Assembly: GCF_003363715.1 (NCBI RefSeq)
Contig: NZ_QREV01000005.1
Span: 62,001-126,000, forward strand
Source: Parabacteroides acidifaciens
GTDB taxonomy: Bacteria > Bacteroidota > Bacteroidia > Bacteroidales > Tannerellaceae
DNA length: 64,000 nt
Direction: 5' to 3'
In this document: one piece after another, positions 25,234-41,942 of the stretch
How the letters are laid out: each line of letters opens with the position of its first letter
How positions within the stretch are numbered: the stretch's first letter is position 1
The notes under the pieces: generated by a model
Told to the model about the DNA's origin: nothing
Database searches by the model: none
What the model saw: only the letters and a program-made list of their open reading frames with translations
Made by a program: the position numbers and the translations under genes

Positions 25234-27798
25234 ATGAAGAAAAAACTAATTGCACTACTCGTCGTCTTGATTCTGATCCCCGGTTGGACATCCGCCCAGC
25301 AAGCCTATTTTATAGACGGATATCATGGTGGAATCTACGGGCATTATCCGGTCGGACAGACCGCCTTTATCGCCCTCAAGTTGCGCCAGAATCCGGATTG
25401 GCGCGTGAACCTCGAGATCGAACCGGAGTCGTGGGACGTGGTCAAGCAACGCGACCCCGAAGGATATGCCGCCTTTAAGCGCTTGTTCAAAGACCAGTCG
25501 GTGGAGACCGGGCGGATCGAATATGTTAATCCGACGTATGCGCAAAGTTATTTCTTCGGCACTTCGGGCGAAAGCGCGATCCGGCAGTTTGAATATGGGA
25601 TGCAGCTGATACGGAAACATTTTCCGGAAGCTGAATTCACCACTTATTCGGCTGAAGAGCCTTGCTTCACGAGCTGTCTGCCTACGATCCTGAAGTCTTT
25701 TGGTTTTTCGTACGCTTCCACCAAGAACCCGAACACGATGTGGGGCGGATATGTCAATGCTTACGGTGGGGAACTGGTGAACTGGGGGGGACCGGACGGC
25801 ACGAAGTTACTCACTGTTCCCCGTTATGCCTGTGAGAATTTGTCGCCCAACTCGACCTGGACATCTGTTGCCAGCTACAATTCGAAAGAATATATACGTA
25901 AATGCCTGGCAGCAGGTATCGGGAATCCGGTGGGAATGTGTATCCAGGATGCTGCCTGGAGTCATGGTTGGGATAACGGACCCTGGCTGGGACGGGATAC
26001 TTCCGCCTATTACACGCCGACGGCCTATAAGACCTGGCGCGATTATATCCGGAACTGTTCTGTCGGAACGACTACGGACGACTGGCACGCAACGCAGGAA
26101 GATTTCTTGCCCGGCTTGATGTGGGGAACCCAGGTCATGCAACGCCTGGCAACGGAAGTGCGCACCTCGGAAAACGCAATCGTGCAGGCTGAGAAAATGG
26201 CGGCTTACGGACGTTTGTATAAAGGCATGGAATGGCCTGTCGAACGGATTGACGAAGGATGGCGGACACTTCTGTTGTCACAACACCACGATTGCTGGAT
26301 TGTCCCTTACAATAATTTAAAGGATAATAAAAACTGGGCGGAAACAGTCACGGACTGGACAGCTTCGACAAACCGGATCAGCCGCGAGGTCATCCGGGAA
26401 GCGCTCGGTTTGATGACCGAAAAGGGACAGACGGCCGTGCGTGTCTATAACACGTTAGCGACGGAGCGCGATGAGCTCGTCTCCGTCGAGGTCCCCGGTG
26501 CCTGGGCAAGTGACAAATGGGTGGTAGCCGACAGAAAAGGCAAGACCTATCCTGCGCAGTTGGTTGCGGAAAACGGGCATACCCGGTTGTTCTTCCGGGC
26601 ACAAGTCCCTTCTGCCGGTTACGCCTCGTACGCCCTTCGCAAAGCGGAGCCTGCAAAGACGAACGGTCCCCGGATCACACAAAACGCGGATGGAACCTAT
26701 CTGCTGGAAAGTGATTTATACGCCTTGGTTATCGACCCGTCCCGGGGAGGAATTATACGCAGCCTGAAGTCTGCGAAGGCCCGGGGGCACGAGTATGTCG
26801 ACCGGACGGATGAACGTAGTTTCAATGAGATGCGCGGTTATTTCGTGGACGAAGGACGGTTTATCTCCAGTACGGAACAGCCGGCAAAAGTCCGGATAGT
26901 GGAACAGGGACCCCTGTTTGCCACTGTTGCGATAGAGGGCCGGATCGGCAATCATCCGTTTACGCAAACCATCCGCCTGGTGCAGGGCGATCCGCGTATC
27001 GAGATGCGTGTGAAGTTGGATTGGAAAGGTAATCCGCATATCGGTGAACCGGGTATCCCGTTTGATTCGAAAAATCCCCGGAAAGCATTTTATGACGACC
27101 GCTACAAGCTGTTGGTGCATTTCCCTGTCAACCTTCCGGAACAACAGATTTATAAGAATGCGCCTTTCGATGTTTGCGAAAGCCGTCTGGAGAACACTTT
27201 CTTCAACCGGTGGGACAGTATCAAGAACAATCTTATCCTGAACTGGGTCGATTTGGGAAGCCGGAATAAGTCGTACGGCTTGGCTCTTTTCACCGACCAT
27301 ACCACCTCTTATGCACACGGACAGGATTTCCCGCTCTCGTTAGATCTTCAATATGCCGGAAAAGGTCTTTGGGGAAGGGATTATGATATCACCCGTCCAA
27401 CGGAGATCACCTATGCCATCATGCCCCACACCGGCACATGGGAAAAGAGCCGCCTGTGGACTTGGAGCGAGCGGCGCAATGAACCGCTGTTAGCAACCCT
27501 TACCGGCGATTCTTCTCCCGACTCCGGTTCTTTCTTCCGGATAGAAGATCATGCATACGAGCTGGTGTCCATGACCTGCAAGGGGAACGACCTGTATATC
27601 CGTCTGTTTAATGCACAAGGAAACCAAGCCCCCAAAACGCTGACCTTCTCGGTGGAAGACATGAAGGCTTGCCTGGTGGAACTGGACGGACGTCCCGCGG
27701 GGGATTTGGCTGTGTCCAAGAAGAACAAAGCTTCATCCGTCACGTTCTCCATCCCCCGGTATGGAATAAGGACATTGAAAATAAGCGATATCTTCTAA
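25234..27798 (+). CDS. Glycoside hydrolase family 38-like (alpha-mannosidase-type)
   Basis: An 854-residue secreted protein: signal peptide (hydrophobic residues 4-20, ending TSAQQ), then a GH38-type N-terminal barrel (YFIDGYHGGIYGHYP with metal-type His, FTTYSAEEPCFTSCLP, WGGPDGTKLLTVPRY), a helical middle domain near QHHDCWIVPYNN, and C-terminal beta-sandwich domains (GGIIRSLKSAKARG, RLVQGDPRIEMRVKLDW). GH38 enzymes remove alpha-mannosyl residues in the periplasm. It follows the aldo-keto reductase by 34 bases on the same strand. Its stop overlaps that of the convergent AraC gene by four bases. The nucleophile Asp was not assigned with confidence, so activity is an inference. Confidence 0.83.
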   Translation: MKKKLIALLVVLILIPGWTSAQQAYFIDGYHGGIYGHYPVGQTAFIALKLRQNPDWRVNLEIEPESWDVVKQRDPEGYAAFKRLFKDQSVETGRIEYVNPTYAQSYFFGTSGESAIRQFEYGMQLIRKHFPEAEFTTYSAEEPCFTSCLPTILKSFGFSYASTKNPNTMWGGYVNAYGGELVNWGGPDGTKLLTVPRYACENLSPNSTWTSVASYNSKEYIRKCLAAGIGNPVGMCIQDAAWSHGWDNGPWLGRDTSAYYTPTAYKTWRDYIRNCSVGTTTDDWHATQEDFLPGLMWGTQVMQRLATEVRTSENAIVQAEKMAAYGRLYKGMEWPVERIDEGWRTLLLSQHHDCWIVPYNNLKDNKNWAETVTDWTASTNRISREVIREALGLMTEKGQTAVRVYNTLATERDELVSVEVPGAWASDKWVVADRKGKTYPAQLVAENGHTRLFFRAQVPSAGYASYALRKAEPAKTNGPRITQNADGTYLLESDLYALVIDPSRGGIIRSLKSAKARGHEYVDRTDERSFNEMRGYFVDEGRFISSTEQPAKVRIVEQGPLFATVAIEGRIGNHPFTQTIRLVQGDPRIEMRVKLDWKGNPHIGEPGIPFDSKNPRKAFYDDRYKLLVHFPVNLPEQQIYKNAPFDVCESRLENTFFNRWDSIKNNLILNWVDLGSRNKSYGLALFTDHTTSYAHGQDFPLSLDLQYAGKGLWGRDYDITRPTEITYAIMPHTGTWEKSRLWTWSERRNEPLLATLTGDSSPDSGSFFRIEDHAYELVSMTCKGNDLYIRLFNAQGNQAPKTLTFSVEDMKACLVELDGRPAGDLAVSKKNKASSVTFSIPRYGIRTLKISDIF

Positions 27799-28643
27799 CT
27801 GTTTCTGTATTCCAACGGCCCCATTCCGACATTGCGTTTGAAATATTTGCCGAAGAAGGACATGTTGGTGAAGTTCAGCGAATAGGCGATATCGTGGATG
27901 CTCAGGTTTGTCGATTTCAACTGTGTTTTGGCATCCATAATCACCATCAGGGTAATGATCTCGACACAGGTTTTACCGGTTGTCTGTTTGACGATCGTAC
28001 TGAGGTGTGCCGCAGTTATGCCAAGCTTTTTGGCATACCACGCAACGTTTCGTTGCGTGGTATAGTTCTGCATCACCAGGCGGCTGAAGTTCTTACTGAT
28101 CTGTTCGGCTTTGGATATGTTTGCCTTGCTTTGGATTTTGTCCTTGTGCATGGCGCCCACTCCCATCAGTATTCCGGACAGAAGGTGGTTCAGAATATCT
28201 TTGTTTAACCGGGAGCCACAAACCTCGTATGTTTTAAGAAGTAATGAAAAGTAGTCTTTCAACAGTTGCGCGTGCTGCTCTTTCAACTCGATGATCGGGT
28301 TGTCTTTGACTGCATAAAGCATATCCATTGCCGATTTACCGATATTGGAATGTTCGATAAAATCCGACGAGAATCCCATAAAATAGATCTGCAAATCCCC
28401 CTCTACCTTATGGATTTGTAAAATCGTACCCGGCAATATCGTGATAAAGCTGCCCGGCTTCACCTGCTTGCGCGTCAGATTGACAGAGGCTTCAATTTCC
28501 CCTTGCATGCAAAGCACGAATATCTCCGCTTTCAACCGGCACGGATAATTGGCATACAGGCTGAGCAAACCGATATCGTTGTGAGTAAGATTTCCGATGA
28601 TCCAATCCTCGGGAAGGTCTATTTTAGGAATGTCGTTCTCCAT
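27795..28643 (-). CDS. AraC-family transcriptional regulator
   Basis: A 282-residue regulator with a cupin-like N-terminal sensing half (LTRKQVKPGSFITILPGT) and a C-terminal double helix-turn-helix (KKLGITAAHLSTIVKQTTGK, then NLSIHDIAYSLNFTNMSFF and FKRNVGMGPLEYR). It is convergent with the GH38-like gene, so it may but need not control it. A consensus -7 box is on the minus strand at 28667-28674. Length is standard for this class. Confidence 0.92.
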   Translation of the reverse strand: MENDIPKIDLPEDWIIGNLTHNDIGLLSLYANYPCRLKAEIFVLCMQGEIEASVNLTRKQVKPGSFITILPGTILQIHKVEGDLQIYFMGFSSDFIEHSNIGKSAMDMLYAVKDNPIIELKEQHAQLLKDYFSLLLKTYEVCGSRLNKDILNHLLSGILMGVGAMHKDKIQSKANISKAEQISKNFSRLVMQNYTTQRNVAWYAKKLGITAAHLSTIVKQTTGKTCVEIITLMVIMDAKTQLKSTNLSIHDIAYSLNFTNMSFFGKYFKRNVGMGPLEYRNS

Positions 28644-28666
28644 ATTTGTGTTTATTATCTCCTTCG

Positions 28667-28674
28667 CAAAGATA
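28667..28674 (-). promoter_or_regulatory. -7 promoter element for the AraC gene
   Basis: Minus-strand TATCTTTG followed by C, about 24 bases ahead of the start codon. Matches TAnnTTTGY. Confidence 0.6.
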
Positions 28675-28735
28675 AACGGATTTTGCGGAAAATCTATACA
28701 AGTATTGAAAAATAGGACTTCATCGTCGGGAATTT

Positions 28736-29248
28736 TACAATAAGCCCCCTTTTCGGCTGTTTTTCTATTTCGTCCGAAATTTTGATCGATTTTGGATTGA
28801 CTCTTTTCTCTGTTTTAGCCTTGTGGGCTGACACCGGATGGAACGAGGTGCCGAGGTCGTCCCGGAAAATGTGCAAATTGATTACCGGAAAGTTGAAATG
28901 CCGACAAAGTGATAAAGCTTAACTCCCGGAGAATCGAATATTTGAAAACAAAACGGACGGCGTCCCAAATATCCCAAGGAAATTCAGGTGCTTTTTTGCC
29001 CTTTAGACGGTCCTCTTTCCAATTACGACCGTCCAAATCGCCATTACGACCGTGCTAATCTTCGCGAGGTGCCGAGTGCACTACACATTAGCACGGTCGC
29101 AATGGCAAAGAGGACGGTCGTAATGGCTGGAAACGCTCAAAAAAGAGGAAAAAGTCCCTTTTTGAGGTCGAAAAAGCGGATTAACATTTGTTTTGTTTCG
29201 GCTGTCTTTTGAACCTGAAAAATACGTTTTTTACAATAAGTCCCCCCT
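28736..29248 (+). repeat. Inverted element, left copy (about 513 bp)
   Basis: The outer ~249 bp (28736-28984) is the inverted, strongly similar counterpart of 29839-30087, and the inner ~100 bp (29144-29248) is the weaker inverted counterpart of 29576-29680. Both ends of the element carry the same short motif TTTACAATAAG followed by a C-run (28735 and 29231), in direct orientation. The middle 28985-29143 is not shared with the other copy and holds its own hairpin. No transposase or credible gene is inside; short frames such as the one encoding FPWDIWDAVRFVFKYS reflect nucleotide conservation. Confidence 0.85.
29040..29106. repeat. Hairpin in the variable middle of the left element
   Basis: Arms 29040-29059 and 29087-29106 are complementary over 20 bp with a single mismatch, around a 27-base loop. 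A second nested complementarity joins GACGGTCCTCTTT (from 29006) with AAAGAGGACGGTC (from 29107), in swapped order. ACGACCGT or its complement recurs several times here. Confidence 0.85.
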
Positions 29249-29340
29249 AAGTAGTTGAAAGTTGAAAGTTAAGAGTTGAAAGTTAGAAGGGATCATATTT
29301 AAGAAAATCTGAACCTGCAAATGATGATTTAGCAACCTTG

Positions 29341-29552
29341 TCTTAGGGCTGTAAGCCCGGCAGATCTCAGCCCAAGGCGTGAGCCTTGGGTTAAGGAAAC
29401 GTCCACCTCCCCCTCTTAGCCCTGTAAGGGCGGCACCGGTAACATCTTGTGTCACAAGGTATCGCCCTTACAGGGCTCGAAGACAGGAGGTGGTCCTATT
29501 TAAACCCAAGGCTCACGCCTTGGGCTATGATCTGTCGCCCTTACAGGGCTTT
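29341..29552. repeat. Palindromic REP-like core between the two elements
   Basis: 29371-29392 is a perfect inverted repeat of 29503-29524 (CCCAAGGCGTGAGCCTTGGG type, each arm itself palindromic). Inside it, 29403-29410 pairs with 29486-29493 (CCACCTCC / GGAGGTGG) and AGCCCTGTAAGGGCG near 29418-29432 pairs with CGCCCTTACAGGGCT near 29463-29477. A third copy of the last motif is at 29536-29550, and a relative GGGCTGTAAGCCC at 29346. These look like REP-type palindromes. The flanking 29250-29290 holds short direct repeats of GTTGAAAGTT. Confidence 0.85.
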
Positions 29553-29575
29553 GGGCGGTTCGCGAATCGCCTACA

Positions 29576-30087
29576 GGGGGGGCTTATTGTAAAAAACGGA
29601 TTTTTTGAGCTCGAAAGGTTCCCTAATTCAAACAAATGTCAACCCACTTTTCAGCTGTCAAAAAGGGGCTTTTTCCTATGATTCGGCACCTTATCGCCAT
29701 GAAGAGGGACTTTATCGCTCTGATCCGGAACTTTGTTGCTCTGAAGTCAGACTTCATATAGCACGAAGTCAACCTTCAGAGCGATGAAGCGTTACTTCAA
29801 GGCAATTTTCTGCGCACCTCACGGCAACAAGCCTCCAAAATTTCCTTGGGATATTTGGAACACCGTCCGTTTTGTTTTCAAATATTCGATTCTCCGGGAG
29901 TTAAGGTTTATCACTTTGTCGGCATTTCCATCTTCCGGCAATCAATTTGCACGCTTTTTGGTATGGGCTCGGCACCTCATTTCATCTGTTGTCATCCGAG
30001 CCGGTTAAAACAGAGAAAAGAGTCAATCCAAAATCGATCAAAATTTCGGACGAAATAGAAAAACAGTCGAAACAGGGGGTTATTGTA
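29576..30087 (-). repeat. Inverted element, right copy (about 512 bp)
   Basis: The mirror image of the left element: 29839-30087 matches 28736-28984 and 29576-29680 matches 29144-29248, both reversed. The boundary motif CTTATTGTAAA (after a G-run) is at the inner end near 29583, and GGTTATTGTAA at the outer end near 30078. The unrelated middle, 29681-29838, is 158 bp, almost exactly as long as the 159-bp middle of the left copy. No gene is credible inside it. The remaining 30088-30252 shows nothing recognisable. Confidence 0.85.
29738..29782. repeat. Hairpin in the variable middle of the right element
   Basis: Arms 29738-29755 and 29765-29782 pair over 18 bp with three central mismatches (GCTCTGAAG...GACTTC) around a 9-base loop. 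The motif CGCTCTGA/TCAGAGCG also appears just upstream at 29716, so the middle is built from repeats of its own. Confidence 0.75.
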
Positions 30088-30252
30088 ATCATTTGGTTTA
30101 CGTTTCCTATGTTGGTAGTTGAGGGTTGTAAGGGTCATCTCCCAACCGGATACCATAAAAAACAGAACACTGTGTATTACTATATGAGGACTTTACTGTA
30201 TGCTCATACCTTGATTTCTAAAGAAAAGAACACGTAATCGGATAAATAGACC

Positions 30253-30283
30253 TTGTGGAATTTTGGGGATTGTCGTTATTTTG
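30253..30283 (+). promoter_or_regulatory. Possible promoter of the surface-protein operon
   Basis: TTG at 30253-30255 and TATTTTGC from 30277 are spaced by 21 bases. The -7 box is one base short of TAnnTTTG, so this is a weak call. It would give a leader of about 95 bases before the first lipoprotein gene at 30382. Confidence 0.3.
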
Positions 30284-30381
30284 CAGCGTTTTTTGGGGAG
30301 AAGGGGCGAAAATCATAAGGTGTATGTGTTTTTTCAAGAAGGTATAGTCTGAAGTTTAGGTAAATAACGATTTCTTATTAG

Positions 30382-31203
30382 ATGAAAGAATGTATAATTG
30401 AATATAGTCTCGGGAGGACTACCGCATTATTAATTTGTGTATTGGGAGTGCTTGTAAGTGTATCTTCCTGCGATTCCGATCGTGTAAATGCCGGTGGAAT
30501 TGGAAAACTGCGTTTGTCATTATCTGCTGATACGACTTCTTTGAATAAAGGTGTCAATAGCCCGACTAAAGCTTCCGTTTCGGATGAATTTGAGAAATTC
30601 CTGACTACAGGTGATTACAAAATTCGCATCGTGCAAGGGTCCGATACCGTCCTGTCGTATGACCGCTTCGATGGAATGCCCTCAGAAATAGAATTGAAAG
30701 AGGGTGCCTATTCCATGATCGCCTATAAAGGCGACAACCTCCCTTCCGCATTTGAAAATCCCTATTTTGAAGGAAATTCCGATTTTACGGTGAAAGCTGA
30801 CATGAGTACGCCTATCGATGTGACTTGTACGTTGGGGAATGCACGGGTGACGGTGGATTATACGGAAGATTTTAAAAAAATCTATTCAAGCTATACAGCA
30901 TTATTAAAAACATCTTTTACATCAACTGATATGAAAATTACGAAAGAGGAAACTCGTCCGGCTTATTTTCAGGTAGCAAAAGATGGTTCAGAATTAAAGC
31001 TTACTCTCCTCTTAACTAAAGTTGGAGAAACAAAAGAAATTAAGTTTTCCGTTCCTACAGCAATCCCATTAGAGCGTCGCCAAAGTGTACGCCTAATATT
31101 TAAAACGGATGGGACGTCTAACGGACTCGGATTAGATATTTGGTTGGATGATGAACTCAATGAGCAACCTTTATGGGAGGACATCCCAGGATATATGGAA
31201 TAA
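30382..31203 (+). CDS. DUF4493-type lipoprotein, first of operon
   Basis: A 273-residue predicted lipoprotein: hydrophobic signal (residues 13-29) with lipobox VSSC at Cys30, followed by acidic DSD, which fits the surface-export signals known for Bacteroidota lipoproteins. The mature part has the DUF4493 pattern: KLRLSLSAD, an NSPTKASVSDEF stretch, LKEGAYSMIAYKGD, then NPYFEGNSDFTVKAD and VTCTLGNARVTVDYTEDF. The same skeleton recurs in the next three genes. It opens a seven-gene AT-rich operon. Function is unknown; a surface-assembly component is plausible. Confidence 0.85.
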   Translation: MKECIIEYSLGRTTALLICVLGVLVSVSSCDSDRVNAGGIGKLRLSLSADTTSLNKGVNSPTKASVSDEFEKFLTTGDYKIRIVQGSDTVLSYDRFDGMPSEIELKEGAYSMIAYKGDNLPSAFENPYFEGNSDFTVKADMSTPIDVTCTLGNARVTVDYTEDFKKIYSSYTALLKTSFTSTDMKITKEETRPAYFQVAKDGSELKLTLLLTKVGETKEIKFSVPTAIPLERRQSVRLIFKTDGTSNGLGLDIWLDDELNEQPLWEDIPGYME

Positions 31204-31228
31204 TGAATATTGTTTAATCGTGAAAAGA

Positions 31229-32002
31229 ATGAAACTGATAATATCTTATATTGTGATACTTGCATCTGCATTTGTATTAAGTGGATGCAACGAAGAGGTT
31301 ACGCCGAATACTTTATTTTCTGCCGGAGAAGGAGGATTAAACCTATTGCTGCCAACAGTAGAGGAAGATATAAAAATACCTGTTATCTACACTCGTGCTG
31401 ACACTACTTTGAATGTGGAAGTTGATCCGAACGTTTTTGCTGTTGAGATTGATGGTCCGAAACCCAAAAGTTTTGACTCGTTCTCGGCGATGCGTGATTC
31501 AGGAGTTCCACTTCTTTTACCTATTGGATCTTATGTGGTAAAAGCTTATTTCCCAATAAATGTGGAGCATGTTTCTGAAGAGCCTTACTTTGAAGGAATC
31601 CAATCATTTGAAATAGTAGAAAAACAAACTACAAATGTAGATTTTGTATGTAAGTTTAAATCATTGGGGGTTGAACTTCAATTATCAGATCGTTTTAAGA
31701 AGCTATTGGAAGAAAAGCCCTATAGTTATGATTATAGAGTTACAGTCTTGAATGGTAAGGCTGATAAAGAATTTAACAAAGAAAATATGAGTCCCTGCTA
31801 TTTTAAAGAAGGATGTGAACGATTAGTCGTTAAAGTAAATATTGTAATGAATGGTTTACCTTTTCCGGAGCGGACTTGGTATTTTACAAATAATGGAAAT
31901 GCACCTCGACAGGGAGAGTATTATGTGATAACATTAGATGCTGGCAAAAGTGATGTGAAAATGACATCTTTCTTATATAATAAAGAGGAGGGAGAGAAAT
32001 GA
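31229..32002 (+). CDS. DUF4493-type lipoprotein, second of operon
   Basis: A 257-residue predicted lipoprotein with signal MKLIISYIVILASAFVLSGC followed by NEE. The mature part carries the operon's shared module: PLLLPIGSYVVKAYFP, then EEPYFEGIQSFEIVE and VDFVCKFKSLGVELQLSDRF. It is shorter than the following proteins and lacks an extra C-terminal domain. A GTG at 31220, which would add three residues, is an alternative start; the longer frame from 31148 overlaps the previous gene. Its stop overlaps the next ATG by four bases (ATGA), so translation is coupled. Function unknown. Confidence 0.82.
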   Translation: MKLIISYIVILASAFVLSGCNEEVTPNTLFSAGEGGLNLLLPTVEEDIKIPVIYTRADTTLNVEVDPNVFAVEIDGPKPKSFDSFSAMRDSGVPLLLPIGSYVVKAYFPINVEHVSEEPYFEGIQSFEIVEKQTTNVDFVCKFKSLGVELQLSDRFKKLLEEKPYSYDYRVTVLNGKADKEFNKENMSPCYFKEGCERLVVKVNIVMNGLPFPERTWYFTNNGNAPRQGEYYVITLDAGKSDVKMTSFLYNKEEGEK

Positions 32003-33360
32003 AACTACAAAAATATACTTATATAGTAGGTCTGTTTTTATCATTAGCATTGTTTTCATGTGAAATGAAGAAAGATTTGTTAGGGGGGAAAGATAAAACG
32101 GATAGCGGAAATAGTGAAATACCATTGGATCAAGCGGGTTTATTGGATTTGGAATTGAAACCATATAAAGAGGCTGACATTCCCGATACAAAAGGGGGGA
32201 TATCTGGTTCTGATGTGACTGTTATAGACGTGAATGATTTTACTGTGGATATATTGGATAGTATCGGTCAGGTATATAAACATTACGAGAGTTATTCGGA
32301 ACTTAAAGGTGAAGGAGGATTGTTATTGCCGATCGGGAAATATTCGGTACGCGCTACATTGGGCGAAGATGTGAATGCCGGCTTTGATGCCCCTTTTTAT
32401 TCTGGTTCAAATGCTTGTGAAATATCACCTAAAGAGGTTATAAAGGTTATTACGGATTGTGTATTGAGTAATAAGAAGATTGTATTTCGTTGTTCAGACG
32501 AATTTCTTTCAAAGTTTAGTGATGATTATTCTGTTGTAATAGATAATGGGAGCGGAGCGTTATCTACATTTAAAGATGAAACTCGTATCGCATATCTTAA
32601 AAATACAGGTGTCTTGCAATTCACTCTTTATGCTACAACCGCGAATGGCGCAAAAGATTTGATATATAGTTTAGATTTATCAAAAAATTCGGAGGTACAG
32701 GAACATAATAATATATTAGTAGATTTAGGAATTGTGGATGAAATCCCGGACGAGAAGCCCAGTGATCCTACAGGGCCCACTGATCCGGATGAACCGGAAG
32801 ATCCAGGAGATGATAAGCCTGAAATTGAAGTGCCTGTTAAAGCTCCTCAAATAAAGGTTGATATATCTTTAGTTGAAAGAGATTATATAATAGAAATACC
32901 TTCAAATATCGTAGATCCGGATGATCCAAGCGGTGGGGAAGAAGAACCTACGGTTGGTAAACCAACAATTGTAGGGCAGGGCTTTGATATAAAAAATCCG
33001 GTTACGGTTCCTAAGAGTAATCCGAATAAGGTTGTAAAAGTCTCGATTAATACTCCGGGAAAATTAAAAGTATTGCAAGTTGATATTTCGGAAGGACTTT
33101 GGGTTGCATTGGATGTGGTTAAATTGGATCATAGTTTTGATATGTGTAACCCTACGGACCAACAAAAAGAAGCATTGCAAAATGTCAAGTTGCCATTGCC
33201 AACCCCTAATGTCGAGGAAAATGAATTTGATATTACTGAGTTTGTCCCAATGATAGCTAAGACTATCGGAGTTGGAACGTATGATTTCAAAATAACGGTA
33301 AAGGATCATGCAGGTCAATCGACAACAGCAACGTTAACAATTGAGGTTACAAATAATTAA
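31999..33360 (+). CDS. DUF4493-type lipoprotein with proline-rich linker and extra beta domain
   Basis: A 453-residue predicted lipoprotein (signal MKLQKYTYIVGLFLSLALFSC). The N-terminal half holds the shared module (GLLLPIGKYSVRATLGED, DAPFYSGSNACEIS, VLSNKKIVFRCSDEF). Residues about 250-275 form a Pro/Asp/Glu linker (PTGPTDPDEPEDPGDDKP), and a second beta-rich domain follows, ending in an Ig-like strand pattern (TYDFKITVKDHAGQSTTATL). The C-terminal domain shares layout with the middle of the next protein (KLPLPTPNVEENEFD compared with KFPVPANQENYNDLNLD). Coupled to the gene before (ATGA) and one base from the gene after. Function unknown. Confidence 0.82.
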   Translation: MKLQKYTYIVGLFLSLALFSCEMKKDLLGGKDKTDSGNSEIPLDQAGLLDLELKPYKEADIPDTKGGISGSDVTVIDVNDFTVDILDSIGQVYKHYESYSELKGEGGLLLPIGKYSVRATLGEDVNAGFDAPFYSGSNACEISPKEVIKVITDCVLSNKKIVFRCSDEFLSKFSDDYSVVIDNGSGALSTFKDETRIAYLKNTGVLQFTLYATTANGAKDLIYSLDLSKNSEVQEHNNILVDLGIVDEIPDEKPSDPTGPTDPDEPEDPGDDKPEIEVPVKAPQIKVDISLVERDYIIEIPSNIVDPDDPSGGEEEPTVGKPTIVGQGFDIKNPVTVPKSNPNKVVKVSINTPGKLKVLQVDISEGLWVALDVVKLDHSFDMCNPTDQQKEALQNVKLPLPTPNVEENEFDITEFVPMIAKTIGVGTYDFKITVKDHAGQSTTATLTIEVTNN

Positions 33361-33361
33361 T

Positions 33362-35539
33362 ATGTGCGGAATGAAATATTATATCTATAGTTGTTTATGT
33401 CTTTTGTTTATCTTAGGATGTGTTTCCTGTAATGAAGATAAAAGCAGCATAGCCCCAACTGGAACTCTTTGTTTAAGTGTGGATCGGAATGATGCCTTAT
33501 CGACAAAAGCTCTCAAGGAGGTGACGGATGAGGTGTTGAATGTATATATTGCAAATTCGGATGGGGATACAATAAAGACCTATAACGATTATCTTAAAGA
33601 GGTGCGCAATGAGAAAATATTATTGCCGATCGGTACATATAAAATTACTGTATGCTCCAACCAGTCAGAAGAAGCAGGATGGGAAAAACCTTTTTATGTC
33701 GGAGAAAAGTCTGTAGAGATAAAATCGGGTGAAATAACAACAACAACTGTTACTTGCACTATTGCAAATACAAAAGTGTCGGTCTTTTATACTGATGATG
33801 TCAAAAACGTTTTTGTAGACTATATAACGACAGTAAGCAATAGTTGTGGTTCGCTGACTTATGTCCGTGATGAATATCGCTCAGGCTTTTTTATACCGGA
33901 AAAGTTAGTTGCCGATTTGAAATTGGTCCGAAAGAAAGATGGACAAGAATTTTATCTAAGAAGGGTATTTCCTGATATAGAGCCTCGCTTTCATTATACA
34001 TTATCATTTAGAATGGCTTCTTCTTCGGAAGACGAAGCGGGTGGAGATTTTAATCTCACTGTAGACAAAGATGCCGAAAGAGTGGATTGTGAAATAGTGA
34101 TTGATGAAAGTACATTGGAACATCAAGATGTCCCTGAAATTAAGTTGTCAGAATCTTTTGAAGATAATAAAATCATATTGAAAGAAGGCCAGTCAGTCCC
34201 AGCAGCATCTTTGTCAATTAAGTCATTGGTTGGCTTGCAATCATTAGTGGTAGAGGCGAATTCTGAATTGTTTCAATCAGAAGGTCTTCTGTCTTTTGAC
34301 TTGTTACATTTGGATGATGTAACAAATATGACATTGAGTGGACTTAAATTCCCTGTTCCGGCAAATCAGGAAAACTATAATGATCTGAATCTTGATTTTA
34401 ATGAATTGCTGAGTTTTCTGCTGGAAAAAATAAAAGTAGAATTAGATACAAAAATACATACGTTTACTTTCTATGCAATGGATAAGTTGCATCAGGAAGT
34501 ATCTCAGACCGTTACTTTTGATGTCAGTCCTAAATTACCGGCTAAGACGGTAAAAGCAAATGCTTTTGCCAAATATGCATATTTATATGGTGAAAGTTCT
34601 GAATCGACTGGTTTGGGATTCAAATATAAGTTGGAAGGTGAAAGTGAATATAAAACGATAGAGGCTAATCCTGAGTCGGATGGAACTTTTTCTGCTTTGA
34701 TTACAAATTTGCAGCCCGGTAAAACATATGTGTATTATGCAATTGCCGGAGAGGACCTAAAAGGTGCAGAAAAGACATTTAATACAGAAAAGGATGAGAA
34801 TCTTCCGAATGCAAGTTTTGAAGAATGGAATGGTAATAATCCTTGGGCTTCCGGTTCTATAACTGATTTTTGGGATACAGGAAATGGTGCAGCCTCTGCT
34901 GCAAGTTTAGTCTTGACACAGTCCTCTGATTATGTTCCTGATAATATGACAGGGAAGTCTGCTTATTTGAAGTCTCAGTATAAAAAATATATAGGGCAAG
35001 ATATTTTTGCAGCCGGAAATCTTTTCTCTGGTGTTTTTGGAGGAATTGTTGATTTGAAAGGGGCAGATATGAACTTTGGCCAGCCGTTTACTTCTCGTCC
35101 AAGCAAATTGACCGGATATTATAAATATATATCTGTTCCAATAGATTGGGATAAAAAAGGAGGTCTGAATGGAAAAAATGATCGCTTCCATATCTATGTG
35201 ATGTTGGTGTATTCAAAACATTATCTTAATACATTAAAGCAAGAAACATTCTTTGATTACGATAAGATAAAAAGGGGGGAAGATCCTGGTGTCATTGGTT
35301 TTGGTGAGTTGACAAATGAAAAAATAGAAAATGGGGAAGATGTTACACCTGCAGTGAATATGGCAGCTTATGAGAAGTTTGAAATTCCGATAGTTTATTA
35401 TAAAGAGGATAAACCTTCATATATAATTGTAACATGTACTTCCAGTAAATATGGAGATTACTATACAGGTGGAATCGGAAGTCAGATGTGGGTAGATGCT
35501 TTTGAATTAATATATGATGATGCACCAAATAACGAATAA
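33362..35539 (+). CDS. DUF4493-type lipoprotein with C-terminal PCMD domain
   Basis: A 725-residue predicted lipoprotein (signal ends ILGCVSC, then NED). It combines the shared module (ILLPIGTYKITVCSNQSEEA, KPFYVGEKSVEI), the beta domain found in the previous protein, a fibronectin-like stretch (TFSALITNLQPGKTYVYYAI) and a PCMD (putative carbohydrate metabolism) domain from about residue 480: LPNASFEEWNGNNPW, ITDFWDTGNGAASAAS, GADMNFGQPFTSRPSKLTGY, and SKYGDYYTGGIGSQMWVDAF. The last domain recurs in the gene at 36280. ATG at 33371 is an alternative start. It lies one base after the previous stop and directly abuts the next ATG. PCMD may bind glycans; that is inferred from the family name only. 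Confidence 0.83.
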   Translation: MCGMKYYIYSCLCLLFILGCVSCNEDKSSIAPTGTLCLSVDRNDALSTKALKEVTDEVLNVYIANSDGDTIKTYNDYLKEVRNEKILLPIGTYKITVCSNQSEEAGWEKPFYVGEKSVEIKSGEITTTTVTCTIANTKVSVFYTDDVKNVFVDYITTVSNSCGSLTYVRDEYRSGFFIPEKLVADLKLVRKKDGQEFYLRRVFPDIEPRFHYTLSFRMASSSEDEAGGDFNLTVDKDAERVDCEIVIDESTLEHQDVPEIKLSESFEDNKIILKEGQSVPAASLSIKSLVGLQSLVVEANSELFQSEGLLSFDLLHLDDVTNMTLSGLKFPVPANQENYNDLNLDFNELLSFLLEKIKVELDTKIHTFTFYAMDKLHQEVSQTVTFDVSPKLPAKTVKANAFAKYAYLYGESSESTGLGFKYKLEGESEYKTIEANPESDGTFSALITNLQPGKTYVYYAIAGEDLKGAEKTFNTEKDENLPNASFEEWNGNNPWASGSITDFWDTGNGAASAASLVLTQSSDYVPDNMTGKSAYLKSQYKKYIGQDIFAAGNLFSGVFGGIVDLKGADMNFGQPFTSRPSKLTGYYKYISVPIDWDKKGGLNGKNDRFHIYVMLVYSKHYLNTLKQETFFDYDKIKRGEDPGVIGFGELTNEKIENGEDVTPAVNMAAYEKFEIPIVYYKEDKPSYIIVTCTSSKYGDYYTGGIGSQMWVDAFELIYDDAPNNE

Positions 35540-36274
35540 ATGAAAAAAATAGGATTAAGTATAGTATGCCTGTTGGTTTCTGTTGCTGTGATGGCAAGAG
35601 GGAACAAATACGACAGAGGGATTGAAATGAAAACTTTCATTCCGAAAGGGCAATGGATGGTGGGGGCGACATTCTCCTACTCGGAACATGTTGATGATAA
35701 TTTTGAATTTATGTCTGTATTGAAAGATATTGATTCGGAAGGATATTCTTTTAAAGTAACTCCTTTAGTCAGTTATTTCATACGGGATAATATTTGCATA
35801 GGCGGACGCTTGGCTTATTCGCGTTCCTATACTAAGCTGGATAACCTTTCTTTAGCGTTAGGTGATGATATCAATATTTCAATTGATGAATGGAATGATA
35901 AGTCGAATACTTATACAGCAACAGCCTTTATTCGTACCTATCTGAATTTGGGTGATAGTAAACGATTTGGTCTTTTTAATGAAGGCAGGGTTGCATATGG
36001 CTATTCTGAGGGCACGAGTAGTAATGATTTTGGAGGGGGATTGAGTGGCGTTTATCAATTGAAGCACAATCTGAATATCGGAGTAGCACCGGGGATAACT
36101 TGCTTTGTAAATGATATTGTTGCTGTAGAGGCCTCAATTGCTGTCGCCGGTCTTAATTTTAACTGGTATGATCAGAATAAAGATCAAGTAGAAAAGGGAA
36201 AACGTACATCCAGTTCTGCGAATTTCAAGATTAATTTATTATCCATCGATTTAGGTATTGTATTTTATTTGTAG
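35540..36274 (+). CDS. Small outer-membrane beta-barrel protein
   Basis: A 244-residue protein with a signal peptide (MKKIGLSIVCLLVSVAVMAR) and alternating amphipathic strands rich in Gly, Tyr and Phe: WMVGATFSYSEHVDDNF, PLVSYFIRDNICIGGRLAYS, AFIRTYLNLGD, GGLSGVYQLKHNLNIGVAPG, and a final LLSIDLGIVFYL. The closing strand with aromatic residues suits BAM-dependent outer-membrane insertion. Eight to ten strands seem likely. The ATG follows the previous stop with no gap. As the only barrel of the operon it could anchor or export the lipoproteins, but no specific family beyond an outer membrane beta-barrel is recognised. Confidence 0.8.
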   Translation: MKKIGLSIVCLLVSVAVMARGNKYDRGIEMKTFIPKGQWMVGATFSYSEHVDDNFEFMSVLKDIDSEGYSFKVTPLVSYFIRDNICIGGRLAYSRSYTKLDNLSLALGDDINISIDEWNDKSNTYTATAFIRTYLNLGDSKRFGLFNEGRVAYGYSEGTSSNDFGGGLSGVYQLKHNLNIGVAPGITCFVNDIVAVEASIAVAGLNFNWYDQNKDQVEKGKRTSSSANFKINLLSIDLGIVFYL

Positions 36275-36279
36275 CTTAA

Positions 36280-37908
36280 ATGAATATCAAAATTAGATAT
36301 ACGCTTTGCTTCCTCTGCATATTCTTTTGGAGTTGTGTGGAAAATGATTTGCCGGAACGAGTGGTCGTTTGCGGTATAGAAGAAATGCAGGTTGAAGGGA
36401 TGGTTTCATGTAAAATTACGGATGAAACTTCTACCGTTACAATTAAAGTTATAGATACAATGGATTTGCATAAAATACAAGTGGAGAAGTTGATCGTAAC
36501 AGATATGGCAACCATTTTCCCGGACTCATCTGCTTGTATGGATGTTTCCCGTTTCCCTGATTCAAGTTTTGAATCTTTGGATCAACTGCCGGAAGATGCA
36601 AATACATTTATGGATTTTAGTAAGCCTGTCCTTTTTCGTTTGAGTTTATATCAAGACTATAAATGGACTATAAATGTTACACGTGATATTAATCGGAGTA
36701 TTAAGGTTAAGAATCAGGTTGGAACAGCCTTGATTGATGAGAATACCAAACAAGTTGTGGTGTATGTAGACTCTGTTTCTCAGCCGTCTTTGCGTAATAT
36801 TGAGATTTTAAGTATGCAACTTGGTAGCTCGATCGCCAAAACGGAGCCGGAACCAAGTCTGGTAACAGATTTTACTCGTCCCCGTGTCTTTTTCGTTTCG
36901 GCTTTTGGTGAAAGGGAGAAATGGACAGTAAGCGTACAATATCCTACGGCGAATGTCCAAACAACAGAGCTTTCAGCATGGACACGAAGGGCATATTTAA
37001 AAGGTTCAACTTTAACTGGCAATGTTTCTGTTGAATATCGAAAGAAAGGAGAAGAGATGTGGGAATCTGTTCTTTCAAATGAAATGAGTTATACTGAAGG
37101 TGAATTTCTGGCAATGATGACTCATTTGCAGCCTCAGACAACATATGAATATCAAATGAATATCGATGGTAAGAGCAGTGATGTAGCAGAATTTGTAACT
37201 GACTCAATCAGCCAAGTCCCTAATCTCTCATTTGAAGATTGGATAATGGATAGTAAAGCATGGTATCCGAATATAGATATGGATGACGCCAATCACTTTT
37301 GGGATTCGGGAAATGACGGAGCGAGTATAGCTTCCCGTAACCCTACCAGCCCGGAGACGAAGGAAGTGATAAAGGGTAAGGCTGTACGTATGGCTTCTGA
37401 TTATATTGATATGGCATCCAAGTTTGCTGCAGGTAATATTTATACTGGTCGATTTATACAGGTTACGTCTGATTTAAGAGGGGCTGAACTTGATTTTGGC
37501 CAAAAATATGAGAGCCGTCCTTCCGGAATAAAGGGGTATTATAAGTATACCCCTGGTATAATCAATCAGGTGAAGCCACCTTTTGAAGGATTGTTGGGGC
37601 AAACAGATTCATGTCATATCTATATGGCATTATTTGATTGGACCGGCCCATTTCGGGTAAATACGACAAAAGGTATATTTGTTGATTTGACATGGAAAAA
37701 TGAATCGATGATTGCTTTTGGTGAGATGAAGACTAATCAGGCAACAGATACTTATAAGGCATTTAATGTGCAGTTGCAGTACCGCGATTATTTTAAAAGG
37801 CCGACTTATATACTGATTGTGGCTTCTGCAAGTAAGTATGGTGATTATTTTACGGGTAGTACGAGTAGTGTATTGCTTTTGGATGAGTGTGAATTGGTAT
37901 TTGAATAA
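36280..37908 (+). CDS. PCMD-domain lipoprotein
   Basis: A 542-residue predicted lipoprotein (signal ends CIFFWSC, then VEND). The N-terminal ~210 residues are two beta repeats typical of Bacteroidota surface proteins (SFESLDQLPEDANTFMDFSK, WTINVTRDI and, again, PSLVTDFTRPRVFFVSAFGE, KWTVSV). A fibronectin-like linker follows (TEGEFLAMMTHLQPQTTYEY). The PCMD domain begins near residue 313: VPNLSFEDWIMDS, HFWDSGNDGASIAS, GAELDFGQKYESRPSGIKGY and SKYGDYFTGSTSSVLLLDEC. These blocks align one-to-one with the C terminus of the protein encoded at 33362-35539. No DUF4493 module is present. Function unknown. Confidence 0.85.
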   Translation: MNIKIRYTLCFLCIFFWSCVENDLPERVVVCGIEEMQVEGMVSCKITDETSTVTIKVIDTMDLHKIQVEKLIVTDMATIFPDSSACMDVSRFPDSSFESLDQLPEDANTFMDFSKPVLFRLSLYQDYKWTINVTRDINRSIKVKNQVGTALIDENTKQVVVYVDSVSQPSLRNIEILSMQLGSSIAKTEPEPSLVTDFTRPRVFFVSAFGEREKWTVSVQYPTANVQTTELSAWTRRAYLKGSTLTGNVSVEYRKKGEEMWESVLSNEMSYTEGEFLAMMTHLQPQTTYEYQMNIDGKSSDVAEFVTDSISQVPNLSFEDWIMDSKAWYPNIDMDDANHFWDSGNDGASIASRNPTSPETKEVIKGKAVRMASDYIDMASKFAAGNIYTGRFIQVTSDLRGAELDFGQKYESRPSGIKGYYKYTPGIINQVKPPFEGLLGQTDSCHIYMALFDWTGPFRVNTTKGIFVDLTWKNESMIAFGEMKTNQATDTYKAFNVQLQYRDYFKRPTYILIVASASKYGDYFTGSTSSVLLLDECELVFE

Positions 37909-37919
37909 AAGTTTTGTAT

Positions 37920-40900
37920 ATGGTTGTAAATAGCAAGTTCTCTTTTTTTAAAAACACTATATCAATTGCAGCGTTAATGCTTTTATTGATTATGTCACAG
38001 GTTGTGTATGCTCAAGATGTAACTGTTGTGACAGATGTAACACAATTAAGAAGTGCTGTTAAGGATGGGAAATCTTATATAAAATTGGCGTCTCCTGATG
38101 GGAATATAGAATTAGGGGAGAATCCTTTAGAAATAAAGGATGGAACTATAATATTGGATTTGAATGGACAGACTTTGTCTGCTATAAATGCAGCTAATAT
38201 GAATGAAGCAATTTGTATAAAAGTCAATGGGGCGAATGCTAATTTGAAATTAAAGGATAACGGTAATGGTGGAATTTATGTGAAAGGAAGAAAGGCTGAT
38301 GATAAGGGGAAATATAGTATTTCAAGTGGAGATAATGGCGCAAATGCTTCGGCAATAGTCTTAACAGAAGGTTCTATTTTAATAAAAGGTGTAACTTTAA
38401 ATATAGAGCCAGGGGCTGGAGGAAAAAAAGGTGGTTCAGCCTTTTTGGGAAGTGATGGTAAACAAGGTAATGCAACTTTTATACGTTCTGAGAATGGTGT
38501 AAAATATAAAGACATAATAGCAGAAGGTTGTATTTTAAAGCAAGGAACTAATATTATAACAAATTTAGATGTTACTGAATTAAAATTTGAAGCAACATCT
38601 TCTATTTATTATGTAGAACAAGTAACCTACAAACTAACTTACGATACAAAGGGGGGTGAAAATCCTTCTCGCATATTAGAATCCTACACAATTGATGATA
38701 ATGATTTAGACTTGCCTATCCCTGGTAAAAGTGGATATAATTTTGATGGATGGTATAAGGATGATGAAAAGCTTAGTAGTGTAGCTCCTTTCCCAAGAGC
38801 GACAGAGAATCCTTATTTGATGAATTTGATTGCTCATTGGGATCCGATAAAATACAAAATTACATATCATTTGGATGAAGGAGAGAATCCAAATGATGCC
38901 ATTGATGTATATACAATTGAATCTGCAGTTACTTTGAAAGAGGCCTCTAAAGATGGGTATCGATTTATGGGATGGTATGATAATGCAAACTTCAGTGGAA
39001 ATAAAGTGACTACTATATCTGAAGGTTCTGCCGGTGATAAGTCTTTTTATGCAAAGTGGTCTCAGATATATAATTTGACATATCATGCGAATGGCGGCAT
39101 TATGCCCGACTCTTATTCTCTGACTTATATCAAAGAAGACACTAATACTCCATTCTTGTTGCCTGTTCCAACTCCGCAAAATGAAAATTATACGTTTATG
39201 GGATGGTGTGAGAAAGCCGATTGTTCTGATGCTCCAATTTTGGAATTGCCCGAAGGAAGTATTGCCGATAAGGTCTTATATGCAAAATGGAATGAAACTT
39301 ATCATATAACCTATCATTGGCTTGTCCCTGCGGATAAGCCTACGATGAAAGAAATGGTTGATAAAACGATTTCTTATACAAAGGATGATGAAGTTATATT
39401 GTCTGATTCGATAAATGGTGCATATAAAGTAGGTGGTTGGTACGATAATCCGGATTTAACCGGAGAGGCTAAATCATTTGTAATACCAAAAGGAACAAAA
39501 GAAAACTTCCATTTTTATGCGAAATGGATTCCTGTTGTTTATACTATTAAATATGAAACTTATTACGGCTCTTTCCCTGCCGGTATAACTGTTCCAACTG
39601 AATATACCTATGAATCGGGAGATATCAACTTGCCTTATCCTGTACGGGGTGGTTATACTTTTAGCGGTTGGTTCACCGATGCAGCCTTGACTAAAGAAGC
39701 CGTTTCTTTGGCAAAAGGTTCGATGGGAAATAAAACTTTCTATGCGAAATGGACACTTGGTAATGTTGTTAGTATTTCCCAACCTGCCAATGGAAAGATT
39801 AAAGTAACGAGTGGAAATCTGGAAATTAAAAACAATGAAAAGGTCGGAGCCGGGATTGCCTTGAAGGTTACGGCTACACCGGATTCATCTATTTATAGTT
39901 TAGTAAAACTAAGGATTGGGGATAAAACATACACCTCAAGTCCGGTTGATACGATTATGCCGGGTTCTGATGGGCTTACTATTTCTGCTGAATTTGCAGA
40001 TAATCGCCCTGCTGTTTCTGCCCCGAAGATCGTAACGAATCCAGTTTCTACTGATTTTATTGCAGCGGGTGAAAGTGTGACGGTCACTTTAGAGAATACC
40101 GATAATACCTCTACATTATATTATAGTTTGGATGGCTCTACACCGAAACTTTATTCAAAGCCCTTCCAAGTCAGTAGCTTGACAACGGGTAAGACCATAC
40201 AAATAGTCGCATACGCCAAAAAGGAAGGATATAAGGATGGTATAGCTACGCGTGATATTGTTTTTGCTGCGGGAAAGATAACGATCACATTTGATTTGCC
40301 TAAAGGAATTACTGCGGTTAATCCAGAAGGTGGTGAAGTCGTGTCGGCTATAGCGACTGGCGGATCATTTGAATTTAAACTGGTTATAGATAAGAATTAT
40401 TTTGAATCGTTGGATTCTTTGGTTGTTTCGGTAGGTGGTAAAAATATAACACCTGATAGCCAAGGTGTTTATACTTTGACGGGCAACACCTCGAACGTAG
40501 TTGTTAAAGTGACTGGCATAACCGGAATTAAGCATAAGGTTGTTTTGTCGCAGACAGCTAACGGTTATATCTATTTTACAAGTGATGAAAATGCGGGTTC
40601 TTCGCAAATTGTTAATTATGGCGATCGTATATCCATAACAGCCAGGCCGGATGAAGGTTATAAGTTCTTTACTTGGTCTGATGGTATAACGGATAATCCT
40701 CGTATTGTAACGGTAGAGAAAGATACGACTATCCAAGCCCGTTTCGTACAGGAAGATCCGGGTTATTTGGTTGTTCTTCCTACTCTTACCGGTGTTAAAG
40801 TGAAGCCGTTGACCGGTTATCCTACGGAAGTAAAGAAGGGTGGAACGTTTAAATTCTATATTAGCAAAGATGCGGATTATAGCGAATCAGAACCGGAAGT

Positions 40901-41942
40901 GTATGCAAATGGAGAGAAACTGACTGTTTATAAAGATGTTTATAGTGTTTATAATATAACAAAGAACATCGTGATAGCTGTCAATGGAATCAAACTGAAT
41001 GAGATGAAATTGGATTTACCTGAAAATGTTTCCGGTATCCACCTGGAAACAGGTAAAGATGTGAAAGATGGTGGTTTGACACCTGTTTCTATGATTGCTA
41101 TTCGGGCAATGGCTCCGTCTGGTAAAACGTTCTCTATGTGGAATGATGGAAAGGCTGATAATCCGCGTATTATAGCTGCGAAAGATGCCGGACAACTTTT
41201 GCCGTTGTTCGTCGAGGCTTCTGATGAACCGGTGGTTAAGGTTGAACTTCCTGTCTTGATGGGGGCTGGGGTTGGCACTGTGAATGCTAACTCTGATGCT
41301 GTTGCGTTAGGAGGTGATATTCAGTTGAAACTTGTTGTTCTTCCTCAATATAGCAATAGTCAAATTAAAGTTACTGCTAACGGGGATGTGTTGGATACTG
41401 ATTTGTCTCTTCGAGCTTCTTCAGAAACAAAAACGTTATTTTATAATTTGAAGAAGGTGACAAAGGACGTGAAAATAGATGTTTCAGGGTTGGAGATCAA
41501 CAACTATAAATTTTCATTGCAACAGACTGTGGGTGGTACGATAAGAGCGGATAAAACCGGTTCGTTGAAACATGGAACCGTCGTAACACTGACTGCGTCA
41601 CCAGTAAATGGTAGTATATTCTTGAAATGGAGTGATGGTAATACATTGAATCCATATGCTTATACTTTGACTGGCGATTGTGTCATGAGTGCTCAATATG
41701 GAAATGCAGATATTCCATTGGCTAATGCAGATATTCAACTCGGAGATATACGGATTTATGCTATTGATAATATGTTACATGTCGAGACGGAACAGCCTGC
41801 CCGTTTATCTGTTTGGAACTTGGGGGGACTGCAGATAAAAAGCGAAACTCTTCCCGGAGGACATTCTGCTTATCAAATGTCTGCCGGAACATATGTGGTA
41901 AAAGTGGGAGAACAAGATGCTGTAAAGGTTTTCATCCGGTAA
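37920..41942 (+). CDS. Giant InlB-repeat surface protein with C-terminal sorting-like domain
   Basis: A 1340-residue secreted protein and last gene of the operon. After a signal peptide (cleavage near VVYAQD) comes a beta-helix-like region ([18 protein letters not shown], then Gly/Lys-rich). Residues about 237-612 hold five InlB B-repeats (for example [15 protein letters not shown] and DKSFYAKW). A chitobiase-type [18 protein letters not shown] block lies near 732, and three divergent repeats with WSDG/WNDG lie near 919, 1073 and 1237. The last ~65 residues ([33 protein letters not shown]) resemble type IX secretion C-terminal domains. It is probably an adhesin or scaffold. A TTG at 37914 is in frame; the ATG at 37920 is preferred. 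Confidence 0.86.

Follow-up and report, generated by a model that had tools for sequence, protein, structure and literature searches.

A large family of non-coding elements with direct terminal motifs and alternative middle cassettes in Parabacteroides acidifaciens

Nearest known systems

In plan, BOX and BrickBuilt are the nearest known systems to the element family described here. Porphyromonas gingivalis, the host of BrickBuilt, belongs to the Bacteroidales like the present host, and of the other interspersed repeats that invite comparison, the palindromes of the REP/BIME type are short. In Streptococcus pneumoniae and S. suis, BOX elements are composite interspersed repeats in which two constant end modules flank a tandem series of middle modules, and they cluster with other repeats (PMC3049150), much like the present family, whose members have a leader of ~250 bp, a cassette of about seven 21-bp units and a tail of ~95 bp. 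The S. suis end pairs A/C and E/F stand around the same boxB, like the leaders of subfamily D and of types A, B and C share arrays here, but the number of boxB modules is variable, whereas the unit number here is nearly fixed, and the terminal inverted repeats of BOX are said to resemble ISSpn2, whereas the terminal repeats of the present family are direct (PMC3049150). BOX also belongs to another host phylum, and the likeness rests on architecture, not on sequence comparison.

BrickBuilt likewise consists of a leader, a minisatellite (23 nt) and a tail, is intergenic, has predicted stem-loops, and gains and loses units at shared loci (PMC4596501). It differs in its IS5-type terminal inverted repeats GAGACCTTTGCA, in contrast to direct TACAATAA ends here, in having 1 to 22.8 units in 19 copies, four of them with both ends intact, and in the 23-nt unit, whereas the present family has 21-bp units, a near-constant length, and swapped and inverted cassettes (PMC4596501). 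Also MITE464/PgRS of P. gingivalis is a MITE with internal tandem repeats, but these are 41-nt repeats, with GAGACTGTTGCA-type inverted ends (PMC4596501). REP/BIME sequences are high-copy extragenic repeats of alternating orientation that are bound by protein (PMC2817692), but they are simple palindromes.

In the literature searched on interspersed repeats of Parabacteroides, Bacteroidales and Bacteroidetes, and on the terminal motif, no description of the element was found. The original prediction that no described element fits holds in this respect, but BOX and BrickBuilt come closer in architecture than it had allowed for. With MITEs the family has in common that it is short, non-coding, intergenic and present in high copy number, but its ends, TACAATAAC...TACAATAAG, are direct and not inverted, which together with the near-fixed length and the swapped cassettes sets it apart from a simple MITE.

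The element pair in the window

The window, a stretch of 64,000 nucleotides of the P. acidifaciens genome, contains two inverted elements, A and B, which are two members of a large non-coding element family. The inverted arrangement that had been predicted is confirmed by arms at 28735-29000/29823-30088 (87% complementary) and 29146-29248/29575-29677 (77%), and the two elements had been placed correctly, but the lengths of 513 and 512 bp had included the flanking C-run. As judged by exact ends and length, element A (28736 to 29240, forward strand, type-A middle) and element B (29583 to 30087, reverse strand, type-B middle) have 505 bp each, and the core between them, put at ~327 bp before, has 342 bp (29241 to 29582). 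In both elements, the two ends carry the terminal motif in one and the same orientation, although it is not the identical one throughout, as B begins with TACAATAAC and ends with TACAATAAG. Element A has TACAATAAG at 28736-28744, followed by a C-run, where most copies have TACAATAAC, and again at 29232-29240 in the same orientation, followed by TCCCCCC.

The leaders of A (28736 to 28984, element positions 1-249) and B (29839 to 30087, reverse strand) are 88% identical, and the tails (29145 to 29240 in A; 29583 to 29679, reverse strand, in B) 75%, in agreement with the predicted good conservation of the outer 249 bp and moderate conservation of the inner ~100 bp. The most conserved inner block, CTTAACTCCCGGAGAATCGAATATTTG, lies at 28918-28944 in A and is kept in other species; its counterpart in B, recognised by its sequence, lies at 29879-29905 on the reverse strand. 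The cassettes, 28998 to 29144 in A (element positions 263-409) and 29680 to 29825 on the reverse strand in B (263-408), are unalike with an identity of 51%, which is slightly above chance (shuffled B middles: mean 46%, SD 2%, maximum 52%, 200 shuffles). The view that the middles differ completely was a little strong, as the arrays examined follow a common plan of 21-bp units with related words. A stem-loop had been seen in either middle; the type-A array can indeed form a long hairpin (38-nt arms at 29022-29059/29087-29124, 87%), and that of B is weaker (31- and 25-nt arms, 74-76%).

In the core, two Acido-Lenti-1 matches (RF01687, 55-57 bits) face each other at 29345-29390 (reverse) and 29505-29550 (forward), which represent a palindromic repeat of the type CCCAAGGC...GCCTTGGG and are at gathering score the only Rfam matches in the pair. 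AGTTGAAAGTTAAGAGTTGAAAGTTG repeats at 29253-29282 recur 3' of many copies and represent another interspersed repeat. Among the 8 ORFs scanned from 27795 to 41942 there is no transposase; the neighbours are an AraC-type regulator and DUF4493 proteins, and the region 30382-41942 beside the pair is a run of DUF4493 and PCMD-domain proteins with a large InlB-type repeat protein.

The family in its own genome

The 20-nt 5'-end motif has 124 exact matches (63 forward, 61 reverse) in the 5.10-Mb draft genome, and the same motif read backwards has none. Uniqueness of the two copies, or a relation by recent local duplication only, would have spoken against the original prediction; the copies are spread across the genome, which rules out local duplication. 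At a length of 504 bp, the 124 matches, or the ~145 copies that result from scaling up 24 copies in 843 kb, would make up ~1.2-1.4% of the genome. In this genome at least 39 further matches cover most of element A, 84-91% identical, among the 40 of 178 candidates that were scored, and relatives of element B are present among 40 scored of 186. A query with the B cassette (29680-29830, 151 bp) found at least 31 places among 40 scored of 49 candidates, namely itself, 29 places with 82-98% identity, and one 30-nt piece. Several copies lie at contig ends, as is the case with repeats that break assemblies.

Both ends of the family's members carry the direct terminal motif TACAATAA(C/G), accompanied by a C-run. 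Copies span TACAATAAC to TACAATAAG, usually followed by the C-run, whose first five positions 3' of most copies are C in 71-89%, and A-rich DNA lies 5' of their start. The 5' end is TACAATAAC in 66 of 97 listed copies and GACAATAAC in 14, and the 3' end is TACAATAAG in 72 of 81 and TACAATAAC in eight, with one row empty. There are 106 distinct copies with a 5' end, 15 of which have no 3' motif in the available sequence; 82 of the other 91, which have both end motifs, are 503-507 bp long, three are 525-526 bp long (+21), and six have aberrant lengths (399, 409, 418, 483, 519 and 538 bp). For 51 of 101 left flanks, and likewise for 37 of 85 right flanks, no in-register relative was found among the compared copies, and the ends are exact nonetheless. 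A roughly 45-bp repeat resembling TTTTGGACCTTCTGCAAATTG lies 5' of many copies, in up to half of the left flanks.

A coding function is ruled out, as the longest ORF starting with ATG has a median of 47 amino acids in 77 copies, in comparison to 43.5 in 40 shuffles, and there is no codon phase. All 23 sampled copies that have an ORF on either side sit between ORFs of at least 90 amino acids, with an overlap of up to 30 bp allowed and ORFs overlapping the element itself set aside in five copies, and the gene on the 5' side of the element points away in 16 of the 23. A phage or plasmid origin is rejected, as element A had no match in the phage collection and element B none in the plasmid collection; four exact hits of two short words in viral contigs are without element ends and look like chance.

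Cassette types and their exchange

The predicted replaceable-cassette, non-coding and transposase-free element is supported. Across the copies, the ends are constant and the middles fall into types, three of which dominate; each type recurs, and the middles are thus not random. Four of 86 full copies were dropped beforehand (length <480), and the 82 clustered copies comprise 48 of type A, 22 of type B, 11 of type C and one with Ns, with D being rarer. As the 86 copies were partly brought in by the A and B queries, these counts are biased; an unselected 843-kb sample of the same genome gave 25 hits, of which 15 are A, 4 B, 2 C, 1 D, 2 reversed-A (best matched by the reversed A query, one of them cut by a contig end) and 1 a fragment. 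The mean identity of the middles is 0.85-0.89 within and 0.53-0.59 between types (0.845 within A, 0.529 between A and B), and the first 100 bp of the element are free of a type effect (0.817 within A, 0.813 for A-B, 0.814 for A-C). The next 145 bp do have a type effect (0.820 within A vs 0.805 and 0.789), and so does the tail (0.831 vs 0.778 and 0.783). The nearest neighbour is of the same type in 60 of 82 cases when leaders are compared and in 58 of 82 when tails are compared, with a random expectation of 35. Cassette and leader are therefore loosely, not fully, unlinked, and their dependence counts against the explanation that is preferred below.

The clearest swap is found between L084 (type B) and L111 (type A), whose leaders and tails are 87-100% identical per 30-bp bin, with a middle of 30-50% in five such bins and 67% in the sixth; both copies are enclosed by nested repeats of one kind, outside of which the DNA is unrelated. 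Subfamily D has a shorter and diverged leader, 62-63% identical to the other leaders, and its array is the reverse complement of the B array (80% over 146 bp, ungapped) between flanks of the same orientation, an inversion that is seen between diverged subfamilies. One copy with a D leader (85%) bears a type-A array (88% local match, 71% end to end). The family shows modular exchange in a non-coding element, and the simplest route for this would be homologous recombination or gene conversion, with the conserved leader and tail as anchors.

There are eight distinct pairs whose members lie within 800 bp of each other and point inward with their tails, and all eight combine A with B, as do three more pairs that are cut by contig ends; random pairing at the observed type frequencies would give about 27% A/B. 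Six of the eight have a related core of 215-266 bp and are thus probably copies of few events; the window pair has a different core, and the L108 pair a third kind, 145 bp in length. In one other close arrangement, a fragment lies beside a copy that has the same orientation. An avoidance of long perfect palindromes is one possibility to explain the restriction to A/B pairs.

The 21-bp units

With array limits chosen by hand, 10 of 11 arrays have their strongest autocorrelation at lag 21 (4/4 of the own types, 6/7 from other species), and its z exceeds 4 against mononucleotide shuffles in 9 of 11; in the type-A consensus lag 21 is on top with a z of 7.2. The two weak arrays are that of L121, with a z of 2.7 at lag 21, and that of L133, in which lag 18 comes first (z 0.9). 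Leaders and tails have no 21-bp period, save for a weak value in the D leader (z 2.2). A 17-bp near-palindrome per unit is suggested by z values of 2.8-5.1 in D and five arrays of other species, with 2.2 in A and 1.5 in L121, and is not supported in B (0.0), C (0.8) and L133 (0.8). Three unit words, with up to two mismatches, occurred 73 times inside and twice outside of elements in the 843 kb, both outside hits falling in a copy cut by a contig end, and 15 shuffled words gave one hit in total. It may be guessed that the array, being phased at two helical turns, serves as a scaffold for a DNA-binding protein or forms a hairpin for mobilisation, and changes in unit number could come about by slippage.

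Relatives in other species

Five of the 38 genus genomes have the strict 5'-end pattern, and so do five of the 123 family genomes; they are the same five and all Parabacteroides species, with 117 matches in the own genome (G000), 12 in G020, 7 in G011, 3 in G014 and 1 in G013. By one host gene, the latter four are the nearest to the own genome (81-84%; next 76%). With element A, blastn gave at least a short match in 10 of 38 genus genomes, and genomes with short matches and without the strict pattern include G003, G004, G018, G025 and G032. A 22-mer of the inner block was found in P. massiliensis (NZ_LT700189.1), the sole matching contig record in a collection in which records of the own genome may be absent. 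In G020, 9 of 11 two-ended copies have 482-484 bp, about one unit less, one has 486 and one 504 bp. Insertions at L137/L125/L179, at L123/L133 and at L198/L189 are each common to different species, which does not speak for present-day movement. At the last of these loci, the elements of two species lie beside the same gene and have 487 bp (L198) and 505 bp (L189), with the 18-bp difference being within the array.

A sister family consists of seven elements of 184-187 bp (L277-L281, L287, L288), five in G011 and two in G013, with ends near-identical to TACAATAAC...TACAATAAG (two elements have a one-base 3' variant) and a different interior, for which, judged by eye, there are two alternative middles of equal length. 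A 5-kb query with one such element had at least 38 further element matches in G013 and at least nine in G014, with 40 candidates scored each, and many of these cover about 120 bp of the element. The own genome contains a 269-bp element with the same ends and another interior at G000 C1:57177-57445 (L215:17177-17445), with CATGCCCATG-type words in the interior and partial matches only elsewhere.

How the family may have spread

Copies with exact ends in unrelated flanks, together with different interiors between the same ends, argue for non-autonomous elements that are moved in trans. It is probable that the family is BOX-like and composite, MITE-like in being non-autonomous and mobilised in trans, and that its cassettes are exchanged by recombination. 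The copies may have been spread by an enzyme supplied in trans that would read the terminal motif, or they may have hitch-hiked within larger inverted-repeat units that enclose some of them. No enzyme and no autonomous copy came to light in the 843-kb sample of the own genome or in the pieces of four relatives that were examined (20 of 52 end-motif places). L188 (1170 bp) and L293 (1210 bp), chosen as long candidates by the distance to the next end motif, were rejected as autonomous parents, as they contain ordinary-looking host genes and no transposase, judged by reading of the ORFs. Clean empty sites were not encountered at the places compared: the MFS locus is not syntenic, G014 holds unrelated sequence at the places of L280 and L281, and at that of L279 it has a decayed 3' remnant of the element. 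The listed copies have no target-site duplication outside the terminal motif. Site-specific recombination, single-strand transposition and hitch-hiking in inverted-repeat units may each account for the movement.

A more far-reaching and rather doubtful view is that the family represents a new class of non-coding mobile elements with a short direct terminal motif, in which one recombinase would move fixed sizes of ~187, 484, 505 and possibly 269 bp. The cargo would be an exchangeable, invertible and helically phased array with an element-private vocabulary that is conserved across species, and copies could be equipped anew with other binding arrays. A dedicated enzyme reading the TACAATAA ends, if there is one, would represent a novel mobilisation system of gut bacteria.

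It is unlikely that the host retains the copies as phased sites for protein binding or chromosome organisation, with the spread being old. The ratios of substitutions to indels, 120 in A, 57 in B and 41 in C (44/48, 22/22 and 11/11 copies used; copies of at least 512 bp or with N, and an unread copy, left out), together with the tight length suggest a constraint, although they come without a neutral yardstick. A host role would be in line with the insertion at L137/L125/L179 that is common to three species, and with the comparison of L137 and L125 in 50-bp windows, where the element is 82-96% identical and the left flank 62-78% in four of five windows (the outermost has 86%), but the right flank has 72-92%, and between L123 and L133 the element (84-100%) does not exceed its flanks (90-100%) in conservation. 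The conservation at shared loci is mixed in that the L137/L125 element exceeds most of the left flank and not clearly the right. Against host sites speak also the variation of 5'-end pattern matches from 1 to 117 per genome in five species, the inconsistent gene context, and the absence of the three tested array words from the rest of the 843-kb sample. Whatever its cause, the constancy makes the family a test bed for what keeps a non-coding element at constant length.

It is very unlikely that the elements are ordinary MITEs, to which a parent with a transposase would have given rise by deletion and whose middles would be random. They are short, non-coding, intergenic and numerous, and some copies lie within a unit that has 28-bp inverted repeats, but the element's own ends are direct, the middle types recur and are conserved at a near-constant length, and no transposase-bearing full-length parent, which the original prediction had named as a contrary outcome, is seen in the sequence examined. 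The nested units, ~0.6 kb long with inverted ends GGGCTCACCCGATAATCATTGGGGATAA, enclose the 504-bp element in unrelated surroundings (L084, L111, L101). Their 28-bp ends are perfect in L111 and degenerate in L084, where the right one has 3 mismatches and the left has no match within 4, and in L101 the right inverted end is not matched.

The predicted structured non-coding RNA family with a variable domain is hardly credible despite the long type-A hairpin and the predicted folds of the consensus sequences (made without a shuffled control), as the elements have no Rfam match at gathering score, with sub-threshold miRNA-type matches only for the A hairpin and the core, and as no convincing covariation was found: few pairs are double-sided (2-8 of the 62-109 predicted) and the two strands show no clear G-U asymmetry, both without a formal null. 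Within the leader, at positions ~201-212, the consensus types of the own genome have either AATATTTG or CYTGTAGC, the latter occurring in G020 as well, and it looks as if a second small module were exchanged there.
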